The notes under the pieces are model-generated. The model was not told the DNA's origin and made no database searches. It saw only the letters and a list, made by a program, of their open reading frames with translations. 64,000 nucleotides of DNA from Candidatus Zixiibacteriota bacterium (GTDB lineage Bacteria > Zixibacteria > MSB-5A5 > GN15 > FEB-12), in the NCBI GenBank assembly GCA_040753875.1, contig JBFMDV010000005.1, positions 186,001 through 250,000 of the forward strand, given 5' to 3'. The number at the start of each line of letters is the position of its first letter. Within the stretch, counting starts at the first letter, position 1. The position numbers and the translations under genes are program-made. Below, in pieces: positions 9,576 to 54,457 of this stretch.

Positions 9576-10439
9576 TCAGGTCTGGTAGACGTAGAACCCA
9601 CGGCCGGTCTTACGACCCAGGTACCCGGCCTGAACCATCTTTCGCAACAACGGACACGGACGATACTTCGGATCGCCAAGGCCGTGGTGCATCACCTCAA
9701 GGATCGCCAGGCAGATATCAAGCCCGACAAAATCGGCCAGCGTCAGCGGTCCCATGGGATGCCCCGCGCCCAGCTTCATCACCTCGTCGATCGCTTCGAC
9801 GGTACCAACTCCCTCCATATAGGCAAAGATCGCCTCGTTGATCATCGGCATCAGTATCCGGTTGGCGATGAAACCCGGATAATCGTTCACCGCCACCGGC
9901 GTCTTCCCCAGTTTGACCGACAACTGGCTGGCCAGATCGAACGTGCAGTCGCTGGTGGCTATTCCACGTATCAACTCAACCAGCTTCATCATCGGCACCG
10001 GATTCATGAAATGCATGCCGATTACCTTGTCCGCCCGACGTGTCGCGGCAGCAAGTTGCGTAATCGGAAGCGATGACGTGTTCGAGGCCAGAATTACTTC
10101 CGGCGCGCAGTAATCCTCCAGCTTCCGGAATAGATCCAGCTTAGTCTGAAGGTCCTCCGTGATCGCCTCGATAACCAGTTGCGTCCCTTTAACGCTGTCG
10201 AGACTCGTGGAACTCTTGATTCGTCCCATCGCAGCCGCTTTGTCCGATTCGGTGATCGCTTCTTTTTTGATGAATCGATCGAGACTTTTTGATATGGTCG
10301 TAAACGCACGGTCGAGGAAGTCCTGCTTCACATCAACCAGCACCACTTCGTAGCCGGTCGACGCGAACACCTGGGCGATCCCATTCCCCATGGTGCCGCT
10401 GCCGATCACAGCTACTTTTCTAATGTCGTTAAGCGTCAT
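9576..10439 (-). CDS. hbd: 3-hydroxybutyryl-CoA (3-hydroxyacyl-CoA) dehydrogenase
   Basis: This NAD(P)-dependent enzyme interconverts 3-hydroxyacyl-CoA and 3-oxoacyl-CoA. From ATG 10439 it is 287 residues, typical of stand-alone Hbd proteins. The Rossmann motif VIGSGTMGNGIAQVF spans about 10-24, with the acidic end VVLVDV; catalytic SSLPIT and HFMNPVPMMKLVE follow, then the C-terminal HPMGPLTLADFVGLD. The frame stays open 62 codons upstream, but that part merely translates a hairpin repeat at 10518-10582, and GGGAGA stands eight bases before ATG 10439. It is first in the run hbd-ACD-ACD-bioY. Confidence 0.95.
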   Translation of the reverse strand: MTLNDIRKVAVIGSGTMGNGIAQVFASTGYEVVLVDVKQDFLDRAFTTISKSLDRFIKKEAITESDKAAAMGRIKSSTSLDSVKGTQLVIEAITEDLQTKLDLFRKLEDYCAPEVILASNTSSLPITQLAAATRRADKVIGMHFMNPVPMMKLVELIRGIATSDCTFDLASQLSVKLGKTPVAVNDYPGFIANRILMPMINEAIFAYMEGVGTVEAIDEVMKLGAGHPMGPLTLADFVGLDICLAILEVMHHGLGDPKYRPCPLLRKMVQAGYLGRKTGRGFYVYQT

Positions 10440-10806
10440 GTTACATTCTCCCGGACTGTTTATCGATAAGGATAGTATGGTGTCCTTGTCACTTCTTTGC
10501 AGCGACACCCTGTCATTGTCATTCCTGCGAAAGCAGGAATCCACCTGAAATCGCTCTGGATTCCAGCTTGCGCTGGAATGACACAAGGGAACGAGTAACG
10601 CATTCTGAAAAGAAATTTCCGTCACACCACACTAGAGCCTCATTCGCAATTCAATTTCGTCACCCTAAGCACCCCTTAACGTAGCCCTAAGCACCCCTTT
10701 GCGTCGACTTGAGCATCCCTTTAACGTCGCCCTGAGCGGAGTCGAAGGGCGTCCGCGCCCAGCTTGGTGCTGTCAGGCGTCCCCGCCCGACAGCGCCTGG
10801 ATCCGT
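10440..10806. repeat. Gene-free spacer rich in hairpin and tandem repeats
   Basis: Between hbd and the thiolase the sequence holds: a double hairpin at 10518-10582 (GTCATTCCTGC...GCAGGAATCCA, then GGATTCCAGC...GCTGGAATGAC); a degenerate tandem array of 22-23-base units beginning CCCTAAGCACCCCTT at about 10664-10728; a family-A hairpin at 10728-10751; and CTGTCAGGCG...CGCCCGACAG at 10770-10793. No gene is visible. The hbd promoter must lie within or beside these elements. Confidence 0.7.
10728..10751 (+). repeat. Family-A hairpin repeat, copy 2
   Basis: CGCCC and GGGCG pair around the 14-base loop TGAGCGGAGTCGAA, identical to copy 1 at 4661-4684. It forms the last unit of the degenerate 22-base tandem array that precedes it. 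Confidence 0.75.
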
Positions 10807-47619: not shown

Positions 47620-48492
47620 TCAGCGATTAAGAATGTAGATGCTGCCTTCGAAGAAACTCGTTCGATAGGACTGTTCGCGGACGACGATCAACTCACGCAG
47701 GAACGACTCCTTCTCGCTTGGTGGGATGTCGTCGCGCAGTACAGTAATGGGAAAATCGATGTTGAGGACCCGAACGTTGGTCCCCGCTTTGATGATGTTC
47801 GGCGGAAACAGCCGTTCGGTTGTTGCTGCCGCTTCCATATCCGCAAGAGCAAACGGCGGCAGTGATAGTGTGCCGCTGTGCGGAACGGCTCTGCAAACGG
47901 CGTCCCGCCAGTGATGTCGCGTCACGACCGGCATGTACCGACCCACCTGCAGAATGGATTCAAACAAAAGCGTCAGCGGCGCCGGGCACCCGAGTTTTGT
48001 GCTGTGTCTCAGGAAGAGGGTTAATGGTTCGCGGTATCGAAATGCGATCTCGATCGCAACAAAGTCGGCAGGGGCTACGTCCTGCCGGATGCCAGGGATT
48101 ATCTGATCGGGGTGACGGCTGGTGAGCCGATTCAGGTCACCAAGGTGGAAATTGACCAGACCGACTTTCCGTACATCGATCCGAAGAGTGCGCCGAGGAC
48201 AGACCTGTACCGGAATGTGGTGCAACCCGGCTGCGATGAATGCATGGTACTGCTGAACGTCGTCCAACAATAGATAGCTTCCATCTTCGCGGTCCATCAC
48301 AAGGAGCGGATGCCGCACGAGGCCATCAGCCGTCAACTCCTGTTCCTGGATGTTAGAGTCGAGCCACTCGAAAGTGAGGATTCGCTCAGCTTCCAGGATT
48401 CGAATCTGGGAAAGAAGTTCGTCGGTCACGGGGTAGCGAAAAGCAACTGGCGTGCCCCGGTTCTCTGTATGCCTTAAGTGATTGTACGACAA
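47620..48492 (-). CDS. ParB/Srx-fold protein, distant SerK/SbnI-like
   Basis: The 290-residue protein has an N-terminal segment like a ParB/sulfiredoxin fold: RILEAERILTFEWLDSN, then ADGLVRHPLLVMDREDGSYLLLDD, then QQYHAFIAAGLHHIPVQVCP. A C-terminal TERLFPPNIIKAGTNVRVLN resembles the YPPKTTRHxxPNR end of ADP-dependent serine kinases (SerK) and SbnI. The DGHHR active-site motif of those kinases is replaced by LLDDVQQYH, so enzyme activity is doubtful. The start is unclear: TTG 48492 has no ribosome site, GTG 48429 is possible. It is flanked by convergent and unrelated genes. Identification is tentative. Confidence 0.55.
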   Translation of the reverse strand: MSYNHLRHTENRGTPVAFRYPVTDELLSQIRILEAERILTFEWLDSNIQEQELTADGLVRHPLLVMDREDGSYLLLDDVQQYHAFIAAGLHHIPVQVCPRRTLRIDVRKVGLVNFHLGDLNRLTSRHPDQIIPGIRQDVAPADFVAIEIAFRYREPLTLFLRHSTKLGCPAPLTLLFESILQVGRYMPVVTRHHWRDAVCRAVPHSGTLSLPPFALADMEAAATTERLFPPNIIKAGTNVRVLNIDFPITVLRDDIPPSEKESFLRELIVVREQSYRTSFFEGSIYILNR

Positions 48493-48680: not shown

Positions 48681-51404
48681 CTATCTGGCGCAGCCAGGGA
48701 CAGGGGCGGCATAATTGAAGAACAGATAATCGATCAGTCGCTGCAGGTCGGTGATGTCCACCACGCAGGAACCATCCGTGTCCGCCGACGCCGGCCCGTT
48801 CGGCACCGGTACACCAAAAAAGATGAAATCCACCAACGCCACCAGGTCCCCAATATCCACAAACCCCGACCCATCCAGATCCCCGCCCGCCGGCGCCTGA
48901 CCCGTCTCCCCAAAATAACTCTTCACCGCACTCATAAGCGCCTGCACCGACCCCGGCGTCATGTACCAAAGCGGAAATGACAACAGCACCCGCTTCCCCC
49001 GAGGACCATCATAGGCAATCCCCACCGGCGTGTTCTCACGACCCGGATCATCTATATTCGAATCGTACTGGTAGATAATCGTGGCGCCGGCACGAGGCGT
49101 CAAACTCGGAATGTCCCCCATCCGCTTGATCCCCCGGGTCGTATCAAGCTCGACCGATGGCCACCCCCCCACTCCCTTCGCTCCCGCAAAATCCTTCGCA
49201 TAGTTCAACGCGTACGACTGCAGCATAAACTCATCGTACAACAGATGGCCCGGTGAGGGGGCCGGCGTAAACAACGGGATCGTCTGGTACCCCGCAATCA
49301 GCATGTCATTCGTGAACCCACTGTACCACCGCAGCGTGTCCCGACTGTACCGCAGCAGCTTCGTCCCGATGTCGTCATCAATCCACCAGATCGAGGAGTA
49401 CTGACCCGCCAACGGACGTTTCAGCGCATCCGCATAATCGTCCACCGTCACCAACCCATGCGGCGCGCCGCTCAACACCGTGTCGTACCACGCTTCCAAC
49501 TCCGGCTGGCTCGGCATGAAATCGTACTCCTCCGTCATCTCATCCGCAATCAATATCCCATGATCAAACGTCGCCGGCGTACCAACCACTGCCGCTGAGA
49601 AAGCCGACTCGTAACCGGACTGGTCAACCGCCTTGAGCTTGTATTGATACGTAACCCAGTGGACCACCGCGTTGTCAGTGTAGGCAGTCTGCGTCAGCCC
49701 CCCTGCCAACAGTGTGAAATCACCCTCAAACTCCCCCTTGCGATACAGATCATAGTGGTCGAGGTCCGCCTCGTGGTTGCTCGCCCAGCTCAACTGCACC
49801 GAACCCACCATCGGCTCAGCGACCACTTGCGCCGGCACCCGCGGGTAGAGCTGCGGGATCTCCGAGGATTCCTCCATGTACACCGGCGGATAGCCGCCCG
49901 ACGGTGTGCCCTTGACCGCAAAGTAGTACCGAATGCCCTGTGTCAACCCGTTGAACGTCTGTGTGCATGTCCCAGGAGTAACAACAGCGGAGTCGTTGTA
50001 TATCCCGGACGTGGTGCCGCGATACACGACATATTGATAATCTGACCGGCAGTTGTTCAGAAACACGGTCAGGGCCTGACCATCTCCCTGATCAACTATG
50101 CTGTCGATTCCCGTTGGGCTGCCGGCATCAGCGACATACGCTACCGACGCAGCGAACGTCTTCACGATGCCGGTCATATACGCGAAATTAAGTTTGGTGG
50201 TGGAATCGGACGGGCGGTGATAATTGGGAGTATTAAAATCCCCTTCGATCGCCATAACGATATTGAACCCCTGTTGATTGAACGGATAATGATCAGAATT
50301 TCCCTGCAGCGGAGCATTGGTGGGGCCGATGTTCGACACCCGGGTGCCCGTTTGTGCAAACAAATCACGGTAAGCGGTATTGGAGCCGCTTTCGAGATCG
50401 GTGTTCCAGGTGGCATCGGGAGAATAGCCGATCATGTCCGCATTGTACATCACCTCGACATCAGTACCGGCGGCTCGAAAATCAGCAGCGGCATCCTCCG
50501 AACCATACAGTCCCTCTTCCTCGCCGGAGAACGGCATGAATATGACGGTCTTGCGAAGGGGAATATCCCTGAGCACGCGCGCCAGTTCGAGCACCATGGA
50601 TGTACCGGACCCGTTGTCATCGGCGCCGGGCGCATGTGTCATCGCAGTGGAGGAGTACGAGTCATAATGTCCGCCGACAACTATTACCTTGTCCGGCTCC
50701 GAGGTACCAAGCTTGACCGCCTTCACGTTGTATCCGGGGTATCCTCCGATAGTAAAGTACGGCGTTGTGACATCCGTATAGCCCCAGTTCAAAAAACGCT
50801 GCACCAGCCAATCGCGTGCCTTGTTCACCGAGTCGGTGTATGCGTACCGCGTATAGAACGCCTGCAGGCGCGCATCAAATCCGTACACCGAATCTTGTTG
50901 GACCCGGTTGGCGACCGTATCAGACGGCGGCGCCAATAGAGCGGGCGCAAAACCAACGGTTACTCCCTCAAAGACGAACGGCACGCTCAATTCGGCTAGG
51001 GGACGGACTTTCAACCCGTAGTCCCGCCGCCACGACTGTGCCTGGCTTGCCGTCCCTTCCACCAACTGTAAGTCATTGTCGAGAGGCATGGCGCTGGTAA
51101 GCGTCGCGCTCTTGGGAAGCTCGGAAGCTTGTTTTGAGGGGTAAACCACATGGTACACACTCAGGTCGACATCGGCTTTTATCGACTCAAATGCAATTCC
51201 CGCCAGGGTAAGTTTCGTTTGCTGTTCGGCAGAGGCACTCACCAGATACCGATTGTCCAGCCGAATCAGTCCATGGCCGAGCTGCTGCTGAGCCAACCGG
51301 GCCTGCTCGCGATTTCCCAGTGAGATGTATCCAAGGTCCGCACTTTGGACGGAATGCGGCAGAACACCGACTACAATGAAACCCACCATCATCAAAATTC
51401 GCAT
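48681..51404 (-). CDS. Secreted M28 peptidase with FnIII-like and dockerin-like domains, copy 1
   Basis: The 907-residue exported protein (signal peptide about 1-21) has a propeptide-like region to about 185 and an M28 zinc aminopeptidase domain at about 185-430: VVGGHYDSYS (H246), APGADDNGSGTS (D262), SGEEEGLYGS (E295/E296), YNADMIGYS, and SDHYPFNQQG with the last histidine. Two FnIII-like segments follow (about 440-605), then a conserved module of about 200 residues (TPATFDHGILIADEMTEEYD onward) and a dockerin-like calcium-binding pair DLDGSGFVDIGDL and DTDGSCVVDITDL. From residue 609 to 895 it is identical to copy 2. Likely a secreted or surface peptidase for peptide scavenging. Confidence 0.88.
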   Translation of the reverse strand: MRILMMVGFIVVGVLPHSVQSADLGYISLGNREQARLAQQQLGHGLIRLDNRYLVSASAEQQTKLTLAGIAFESIKADVDLSVYHVVYPSKQASELPKSATLTSAMPLDNDLQLVEGTASQAQSWRRDYGLKVRPLAELSVPFVFEGVTVGFAPALLAPPSDTVANRVQQDSVYGFDARLQAFYTRYAYTDSVNKARDWLVQRFLNWGYTDVTTPYFTIGGYPGYNVKAVKLGTSEPDKVIVVGGHYDSYSSTAMTHAPGADDNGSGTSMVLELARVLRDIPLRKTVIFMPFSGEEEGLYGSEDAAADFRAAGTDVEVMYNADMIGYSPDATWNTDLESGSNTAYRDLFAQTGTRVSNIGPTNAPLQGNSDHYPFNQQGFNIVMAIEGDFNTPNYHRPSDSTTKLNFAYMTGIVKTFAASVAYVADAGSPTGIDSIVDQGDGQALTVFLNNCRSDYQYVVYRGTTSGIYNDSAVVTPGTCTQTFNGLTQGIRYYFAVKGTPSGGYPPVYMEESSEIPQLYPRVPAQVVAEPMVGSVQLSWASNHEADLDHYDLYRKGEFEGDFTLLAGGLTQTAYTDNAVVHWVTYQYKLKAVDQSGYESAFSAAVVGTPATFDHGILIADEMTEEYDFMPSQPELEAWYDTVLSGAPHGLVTVDDYADALKRPLAGQYSSIWWIDDDIGTKLLRYSRDTLRWYSGFTNDMLIAGYQTIPLFTPAPSPGHLLYDEFMLQSYALNYAKDFAGAKGVGGWPSVELDTTRGIKRMGDIPSLTPRAGATIIYQYDSNIDDPGRENTPVGIAYDGPRGKRVLLSFPLWYMTPGSVQALMSAVKSYFGETGQAPAGGDLDGSGFVDIGDLVALVDFIFFGVPVPNGPASADTDGSCVVDITDLQRLIDYLFFNYAAPVPGCAR
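48718..49580 (-). repeat. 863-bp near-identical segment, copy A
   Basis: This segment matches 51591-52453 with no gap and about five substitutions, all silent. It encodes residues 609-895 of the first M28 peptidase. On both sides the two genes differ strongly. The left edge lies 12 codons before the stop and the right edge at the domain border. Confidence 0.93.
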
Positions 51405-51553
51405 AAACGCCTCCGGTCAACTCTCAGATGACAATTCCAACGCAGCTCCTGAACTCCGTTCGGCACTAATCACACGCAAGTACTTCAGGCCTTCTGATCT
51501 CTCCAATCTATCGACACGGACTCCCTTGTCAACCAGGGAGCGTGGGTCGCGCA

Positions 51554-54298
51554 TCAGTGCGCGCATCCCGACACTGGCGCATCAGAGCCAAAGAACAGAT
51601 AATCGATCAGTCGCTGCAGGTCGGTGATGTCCACCACGCAGGAACCATCCGTGTCCGCCGACGCCGGCCCGTTCGGCACCGGTACACCAAAAAAGATGAA
51701 GTCCACCAACGCCACCAGGTCCCCAATATCCACAAACCCCGACCCATCCAGATCCCCGCCCGCCGGCGCCTGACCCGTCTCCCCAAAATAACTCTTCACC
51801 GCACTCATGAGCGCCTGCACCGACCCCGGCGTCATGTACCAAAGCGGAAATGACAACAGCACCCGCTTCCCCCGAGGACCATCATAGGCAATCCCCACCG
51901 GCGTGTTCTCACGACCCGGATCATCTATATTCGAATCGTACTGGTAGATAATCGTGGCGCCGGCACGAGGCGTCAAACTCGGAATGTCCCCCATCCGCTT
52001 GATCCCCCGGGTCGTATCAAGCTCGACCGATGGCCACCCCCCCACTCCCTTCGCTCCCGCAAAATCCTTCGCATAGTTCAACGCGTACGACTGCAGCATA
52101 AACTCATCGTACAACAGATGGCCCGGTGAGGGGGCCGGCGTAAACAACGGGATCGTCTGGTACCCCGCAATCAGCATGTCATTCGTGAACCCACTGTACC
52201 ACCGCAGCGTGTCCCGACTGTACCGCAGCAGCTTCGTCCCGATGTCGTCATCAATCCACCAGATCGAGGAGTACTGACCCGCCAACGGACGTTTCAGTGC
52301 ATCCGCATAATCATCCACCGTCACCAACCCGTGCGGCGCGCCGCTCAACACCGTGTCGTACCACGCTTCCAACTCCGGCTGGCTCGGCATGAAATCGTAC
52401 TCCTCCGTCATCTCATCCGCAATCAATATCCCATGATCAAACGTCGCCGGCGTGCTTGCGACCTCAACCGAAAAATCTGAAGCCAGGCCGGTTCGATCAA
52501 TCGCCCTGACGCGATAGCGCGAGGCAAACCATCGCAACGCGGTACTGTCATCAAATGTCGTCTGCATCAGGTTCCCGGCGATGAGGCGAAACTCGGTCTC
52601 GAACTCCGCACGGCGATACAGCTCGTAGTGGTCAAGATCGGCTTCATGGTTGCTGGCCCAGGAGAGACGTATGGCGCCGATTTGCGGTTCAGCGCTCACG
52701 GATGCGGGAATGCGAGGATACAGGAGAGGGGTTTCCGACAGTTCCTCTGCATATACGGCTGGATACCCACCGTCGGGGATTCCTCGCACCGTCATATAAT
52801 ACCTGACGCCCTGCGTCAGACCCGTAAGTAGTTGCTGACTTGCGCCGGGCGTAACCGGCACCGAATCGTTGTAGACTCCTGGTGCAGTACCACGATATGC
52901 GTAATAAGTGTAATCACTTCGGACATTTCCAAAATGTATGGTCAGACCCTGTCCATCCCCCTGGTCGACAATGCTGTCAACTGGTGTCGGACTGGCGGCA
53001 TCCCCGACGTATCCGAGTGCCGCTGCGGCCATTCTGGCAATATTCGTCATGTAGTCAAAATTCAGTTTGCTGGTGGAATCGGTCGGTTGATGATAGTTCG
53101 GTGTGTTGAAATCACCTTCGGCAGTATACACTACGGGCCAACCCTGTTCATCGAACGGCGTGTGATCCGAGGCTTGAAGCCCCGACGGCAGCCAGGGAAC
53201 AATACTGGACACGCGACTCGCGCAGGCAACCGACACATTCAAATACGCCTGATTGTTTCCTGCCTGAAGGCGCGTATTGTAAACGGTGTTAGGTTCGTAC
53301 CCAACCATATCATAGTTGTACATCACCTCGATGTCGGCTCCCACTGCCGCAAATGAATCGACAGCAACATAGGAGCCATACATCCAGATCTCTTCGGCCC
53401 CAAACGGCATAAAGATGATTGTCTTGCGAAGCGGTATGTCCTTGAGTATTCGAGCCATCTCCAGGACGACGGATGTACCGGAAGCATTGTCATCGGCGCC
53501 CGGCGCATGTACCATTTCGTCATACTGGCTGTATGAATCGTAGTGGGCACCGATCACGATAATCTTCTCCGGTTCGGCCCACCCGGGTTTGATGGTCATG
53601 ACATTGTCACTCCAGCAGTTGCACGGTGTCCCCCAGTATTCTCCCACCCAGACTGGTTGCGTGGTGACTTGTGTATATCCCCATCCCTGGAATTTCTGCA
53701 CTAACCAATCGCGCGCCTTGAAAGCCGAATCGGTCCGAAAGAAACGAGTGTAGAAGGCCTGCAGTCGCGAATCGAACGCATAGAGGGAGTCCTGGCTGAC
53801 CCTCAACGCGAGTGAATCGGACGGGAACCCATCACGCCACTCGTCTTGAGCAACAGCAATCGATGGTTGATGCGTGAATCGGATGCTTAGGTCCGAAAGC
53901 TCCCTGCATTTGAGATTGGCTTCCGTGGCTATCGCTTTTACTGTCGACGATGAAAGGTGCACCAAGAAGCGGTCTTCATCGAGGCGGACAGCCTGAACGT
54001 CCGCCGCTAGCCAGCCCGTGGCGTCCTGCCCATGAGATGACATAAGAAGGTACCAGTCATCAAGCCGTTGGTCGACAAGCACCGACTCCCACGAGAGTCC
54101 GCCCTTAGCGAGTTGGGACTGCTGCGCCGAGTCAACTGCCACCAGGAAGCGATTTCCCACTCTGGCCATTGCATGCGAGAGAACTGACCGTGCCTGCATG
54201 ACATCACGGTCGCTGTCGATTGCAACGAACCCGATATCCACCGCATCTGCCCGACCTGCAAGCGCGCACCCAAGCAGAATCCAGCCAATCACCTTCAT
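51554..54298 (-). CDS. Secreted M28 peptidase with FnIII-like and dockerin-like domains, copy 2
   Basis: The 914-residue paralogue of the neighbouring peptidase starts at ATG 54298 with GGAGGAG four bases upstream (a longer frame to 54316 is not needed). It has a signal peptide of about 20 residues (KVIGWILLGCALAGRADA) and the same order of domains. Zinc ligands: IVIGAHYDSYSQYDE, HAPGADDNASGTSVVLE, FGAEEIWMYGSY (EE kept, EGLYG changed), NYDMVGYEPN, and ASDHTPFDEQG. The N-terminal 615 residues are only moderately similar to copy 1, whereas residues 616-902 are identical. It is upstream of copy 1 on the same strand, 150 bases apart. Confidence 0.88.
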   Translation of the reverse strand: MKVIGWILLGCALAGRADAVDIGFVAIDSDRDVMQARSVLSHAMARVGNRFLVAVDSAQQSQLAKGGLSWESVLVDQRLDDWYLLMSSHGQDATGWLAADVQAVRLDEDRFLVHLSSSTVKAIATEANLKCRELSDLSIRFTHQPSIAVAQDEWRDGFPSDSLALRVSQDSLYAFDSRLQAFYTRFFRTDSAFKARDWLVQKFQGWGYTQVTTQPVWVGEYWGTPCNCWSDNVMTIKPGWAEPEKIIVIGAHYDSYSQYDEMVHAPGADDNASGTSVVLEMARILKDIPLRKTIIFMPFGAEEIWMYGSYVAVDSFAAVGADIEVMYNYDMVGYEPNTVYNTRLQAGNNQAYLNVSVACASRVSSIVPWLPSGLQASDHTPFDEQGWPVVYTAEGDFNTPNYHQPTDSTSKLNFDYMTNIARMAAAALGYVGDAASPTPVDSIVDQGDGQGLTIHFGNVRSDYTYYAYRGTAPGVYNDSVPVTPGASQQLLTGLTQGVRYYMTVRGIPDGGYPAVYAEELSETPLLYPRIPASVSAEPQIGAIRLSWASNHEADLDHYELYRRAEFETEFRLIAGNLMQTTFDDSTALRWFASRYRVRAIDRTGLASDFSVEVASTPATFDHGILIADEMTEEYDFMPSQPELEAWYDTVLSGAPHGLVTVDDYADALKRPLAGQYSSIWWIDDDIGTKLLRYSRDTLRWYSGFTNDMLIAGYQTIPLFTPAPSPGHLLYDEFMLQSYALNYAKDFAGAKGVGGWPSVELDTTRGIKRMGDIPSLTPRAGATIIYQYDSNIDDPGRENTPVGIAYDGPRGKRVLLSFPLWYMTPGSVQALMSAVKSYFGETGQAPAGGDLDGSGFVDIGDLVALVDFIFFGVPVPNGPASADTDGSCVVDITDLQRLIDYLFFGSDAPVSGCAH
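51591..52453 (-). repeat. 863-bp near-identical segment, copy B
   Basis: The partner of 48718-49580 at a constant offset of 2873 bases. The differences (for example GAAATCC/GAAGTCC, ATAAGCG/ATGAGCG and three close together near 52300-52330) do not change the protein. Confidence 0.93.
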
Positions 54299-54457
54299 AA
54301 ACTCCTCCTGAACCAAGAGTCGAGCCGGTATGTCTTATGACGAGTACCTACCGGCCTTTGTTTGGCGAAAGATCACAGCAGGATCAACAGATGAGAACCT
54401 GTTCTCAAGTTATGCAATTGAGCCGATTTGTCAATGAATAGAGTCGGGTGTCCGCGT

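Follow-up and report, generated by a model that had tools for sequence, protein, structure and literature searches.

In the window, that is the whole stretch of 64,000 nucleotides analysed here from a Candidatus Zixiibacteriota genome, two neighbouring genes, A and B, for putatively secreted M28 peptidases share an 863 bp tract of nearly identical DNA. Very probably they are old tandem duplicates of which the C-terminal third has recently been homogenised by gene conversion, the heads having diverged. The process is of a known kind, found here in a new family and a new domain architecture, and our results from related genomes revealed that the homogenisation of tandem tails is frequent, though not universal.

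The two genes and their shared tract

Gene A (48681-51404, 907 aa) and gene B (51554-54298) were delimited as open reading frames with Pfam matches; both lie on the minus strand with a spacing of 149 bases, B being upstream of A. The start of B, set by inspection, is probably the ATG at 54298, which stands before a signal-like sequence, and not the listed TTG at 54316. B is a tandem paralogue with the same architecture as A, namely a signal-like N-terminus, a pro-region of low conservation (25% identity), the M28 domain, an FN3-like linker whose Pfam match is weak, a module of about 220 residues and a dockerin-like tail. As the original prediction had it, both are M28 peptidases: Pfam Peptidase_M28 (PF04389) matches residues 231-416 of A (50157-50714, minus strand; E 3.1e-34) and residues 240-432 of the 920 aa open reading frame of B (53021-53599, minus strand; E 7.6e-33). 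The profile scores are above the curated cut-off and the conserved metal-ligand residues are present in both heads, where H246, D262, E295/E296, D323 and H396 of A are invariant in the family alignment; the head is a putative M28 aminopeptidase. Moreover the head resembles by sequence the M28 leucyl aminopeptidases of known structure (PDB 1rtq, 1amp); the match covers residues 168-432, and the C-terminal module and dockerin-like tail fall outside it. Directly downstream of A, 47620-48492 on the minus strand matches the SbnI family with E 3e-9, at 36.5 bits against a cut-off of 350.

The shared tract occupies exactly 48718-49580 in A and 51591-52453 in B (minus strand), which are its maximal bounds. 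Direct comparison within the window aligns the copies without gaps, at a constant offset of 2873, with five differences (48828, 48936, 49425, 49440 and 49458), all of which are silent third-position transitions; the tract proteins are identical, and the earlier estimate of about five silent differences was thus accurate. Since about 34% of random transitions in the tract are expected to be silent, the probability of five out of five is near 0.005, which fits purifying selection since the two tracts were last identical. The tract covers the rear third of both genes, that is the module with a predicted GATase1/ThuA-like fold (residues 614-835 of A, 48900-49565; 51773-52438 in B, with an identical protein sequence) and the dockerin-like tail (residues 841-894 of A, 48723-48884; 51596-51757 in B), all on the minus strand. 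Two abrupt borders lie inside the genes, one at a domain edge and one at a distance of 11 codons from the stop, just where sharp borders had first been noticed; in the 100 adjoining bases the identity between A and B is only 33/100 on one side and 51/100 on the other. The last 11 codons with the stop (48681-48717 in A and 51554-51590 in B, minus strand) are outside the tract and have diverged, as has the DNA downstream.

Outside the tract, A and B have 49.9% protein identity and 55% DNA identity, in line with the moderate similarity first noticed between their N-terminal parts, with differences at 97 of the 155 4-fold sites that could be compared. Synonymous sites there are near saturation, so that the N-terminal halves do not share the low synonymous divergence of the tract, and the original prediction of gene conversion or module exchange, as against a recent duplication of the whole gene, is supported. 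In the synonymous-run test the identical codons number 269/274 inside the tract and 120/301 outside, and none of 10000 shuffles scored as high. No other direct repeat of at least 60 bases was reported in the window, and no third near-identical copy of the tract was found in the 3.29 Mb genome.

Tandem pairs in related genomes

With a cut-off of E 1e-15, the module was detected in 47 of the 132 genomes examined from the phylum, and the genes bearing it often stand in tandem pairs or triplets. The run test on synonymous codons (10000 shuffles, pairs within genomes) was applied to ten adjacent full-length pairs, where G000 is the genome of the window and the other G numbers are related Zixiibacteriota genomes. 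Five of the ten pairs, namely G000, G009 1/2, G027, G033 7/0 and G055, have a significant tract (0/10000 shuffles each), and all five tracts fall in the module or the dockerin part, that is the C-terminal third; G027 is a single-contig genome. The other five full-length pairs (G009 2/10, G019, G033 4/7, G039 and G045) have no significant tract, nor have the G074 pair and a truncated G056 pair added later, which brings the total to five of 12 adjacent pairs. Among ten non-adjacent pairs within genomes, two within arrays and eight unlinked, there was no tract and no score above 6.5, and in 841 between-genome pairs the top score was 11.8, compared with 22 to 116 for the five significant pairs. 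Moreover, the G000, G009 and G027 pairs have a larger module-minus-catalytic difference than any of the 841 between-genome pairs. In G033, one copy (copy 4, L064 3521-6487) compared with the other two is 53-54% identical in the module and 67-72% in the catalytic part, the reverse of the usual pattern.

Module GC3, taken relative to head GC3, averages +3.3 in homogenised genes against -0.4 (p 0.02, for related sequences in groups chosen post hoc), which is a weak signal of GC-biased conversion.

Older events may be recorded in two genomes. In its catalytic part, one copy of the G074 pair resembles another species (66%) more than its neighbour (51%). For the module the order is reversed, with 71% to the neighbour as against 66%, and in the module tree the two neighbours join with an SH-aLRT of 98.7; the third G009 copy behaves likewise. 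The head of G074 sits on a long branch, and AU tests on the protein trees of G009 and G074 do not reject the alternative topologies (p 0.13-0.42; 0.13-0.37 for G074). These trees are suggestive of older tail conversions in both genomes.

Stretches around other dockerin-tailed genes of G000, a sample of 343 kb, were also compared for repeats. Two proteins of 1114 and 1120 aa on different contigs (C28 and C12), with bodies mostly 35-57% alike, agree closely over their final 72 residues up to the stop codon, at about 96% in protein and 88% in DNA (L186:12062-12279 and L188:11756-11973). Their synonymous run is borderline (505/10000 shuffles as high), and the pair, possibly an older tail transfer, was left out of the conversion count. 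Two further repeats were observed in G000. On C33, two different genes with sorting-type tails share 136 bases at 98% identity, which comprise the last 8 codons (SRKMLLVK) and downstream DNA (L192:5262-5397 and 10353-10488); on C28, four repeat copies of about 125 bases with 94-99% identity lie within 2 kb outside long open reading frames (L185:5064-6965).

Gene conversion weighed against other explanations

Identity as high as that of the module might be thought to come from strong constraint on its protein without any recombination, given the 100% identity of the module protein and five differences that are silent without exception. However, the 4-fold sites are identical as well (110/112 between A and B in the module, compared with 48/135 for the catalytic part), and when different genomes are compared, conservation is lower in the module (39%) than in the catalytic part (44%). 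By the run test, the comparison with the 841 between-genome pairs and this lower conservation of the module, simple constraint on the protein is excluded, and conversion between neighbours becomes the best explanation. A diversity-generating retroelement was dismissed too, the five differences being few, silent and not restricted to adenines.

From the window alone, conversion of the tails is indistinguishable from the opposite course of events, in which a recent duplication of all of A or B was followed by recombination with a diverged donor that replaced the first two thirds of one copy, and a border at a domain edge agrees with such an exchange of heads. The relatives tip the balance here. 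Each head has its nearest relative in the other: protein identity between them is about 56-57% (peptidase and linker), the best match in any other genome reaches 50%, and the two are sisters with an SH-aLRT of 100; the heads of the other four tract-bearing pairs group together in the same way. Head replacement would moreover require two exchanges, given that A and B disagree in their final 11 codons and in the DNA beyond them as well. Because the two heads are each other's closest relatives, conversion of the tail is preferred over replacement of the head, which we regard as improbable, and the choice between conversion and module exchange left by the original prediction leans towards the former. 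A single unequal crossover is insufficient to explain a tract that has both borders inside the genes and is followed by 11 diverged codons and diverged downstream DNA. Unequal crossing-over in a longer former tandem array, followed by gene loss, agrees with the arrays of two or three genes in related genomes; it would nevertheless copy the gene end and the downstream spacer, while the similarity ends 11 codons before the stop, and we find it scarcely credible. An error of assembly or binning, which wrote one tail into both genes, is likewise very improbable: the longest difference-free run of about 488 bases does exceed a short read, but the copies differ at five sites and lie 2.9 kb apart in one 550 kb contig, each with unique flanks, and the pattern recurs in separately assembled genomes including the single-contig G027.

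Under tail conversion, an old tandem duplication would have been followed by the divergence of the enzyme heads, after which the C-terminal third of one copy would recently have been overwritten from the other by homologous recombination, either from A to B or from B to A, leaving a non-reciprocal conversion tract with both borders inside the genes. The process may well recur, as the rear segment would keep enough DNA identity for further exchange owing to the earlier exchange, and selection would tolerate or favour a common rear part on peptidases with different heads. That the tail is converted and not the head might come about in two ways: the heads may be selected to differ, so that head conversions were lost, or a common tail may be favoured that docks to the same partner.

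The rear module and the meaning of a common tail

The module has no match in Pfam or NCBIfam. An AlphaFold2 prediction of module and tail, made from ten sequences for a 297 aa piece, has a mean pLDDT of 81, and VIA-align gives the predicted module a Z of about 15 to 3rht, 1t0b, 2gk3 and a GH42 domain (overall range 13-16) at a sequence identity of only about 6-16%. GATase1-like and ThuA-like proteins and the GH42 beta-galactosidase domain thus share the predicted fold; the module differs from them in its low identity, in having no Cys and in being joined to a peptidase. As a candidate class I glutamine amidotransferase it fits by predicted fold and lacks the catalytic Cys, the motif LIAGYQT coming after the strand at model residues 90-95. 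Because no Cys is present in the whole module, the candidate was rejected, and the module is probably not an amidotransferase, being a relative by predicted fold.

The dockerin-like tail scores 22.0 bits with PF00404 against a cut-off of 22.9, and 27.3 bits in a six-frame search of the genome. Two kinds of C-terminal tag coexist in G000 (3.3 Mb), which has about 70 dockerin-like tails and 43 Por_Secre_tail matches, along with six cohesin-like matches above the cut-off. Relatives from Bacteroidetes, Ignavibacteriae and Cloacimonetes carry this module too, but there a C-terminal sorting domain of the 'YPNPFN' type stands behind it in place of the dockerin-like tail. Because relatives swap the one tail for the other, it is plausible that the rear part is linked to secretion or surface docking. 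The cohesin-like matches permit the reading of docking to the same partner without demonstrating it.

Domain-limited gene conversion between tandem paralogues, recurrent across lineages, has been described for mtrA-1 and mtrA-2 of methanogens (PMC4632066), where likewise one domain is homogenised and the other differs. Those genes encode archaeal methyltransferase subunits in which the MtrA domain is homogenised and the differing domain was gained by fusion (PMC4632066); in A and B, by contrast, both heads are homologous, diverged peptidases, and the C-terminal module and dockerin-like tail are homogenised. A prokaryotic survey of long-lasting concerted evolution named gene conversion as its driver (PMC6053082), and there too paralogues within a genome are closer than orthologues, synonymous sites included; the survey covers full-length homogenisation, and its authors leave partial-sequence cases for future work. 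Our literature search, which covered few subscription journals, returned nothing relevant on this family, on gene conversion of dockerins or on dockerins of Zixibacteria.

The module and dockerin-like tail could form a common docking or oligomerisation chassis, the uniformity of which within each genome is kept by conversion under selection on co-assembly rather than arising as a by-product of tandem arrangement; we hold this reading to be tentative and rather doubtful. If it were true, tandem peptidases with different heads would share a scaffold or form mixed oligomers. Regardless of that reading, the two genes provide a well-controlled case of conversion confined to part of a bacterial gene, one that recurs in several genomes from an uncultured phylum, and they are a warning that gene trees are misled by the C-terminal regions of families like this. 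Moreover, with heads that diverge and tails that are homogenised, these pairs are a natural set for asking whether selection on docking steers where conversion is kept.
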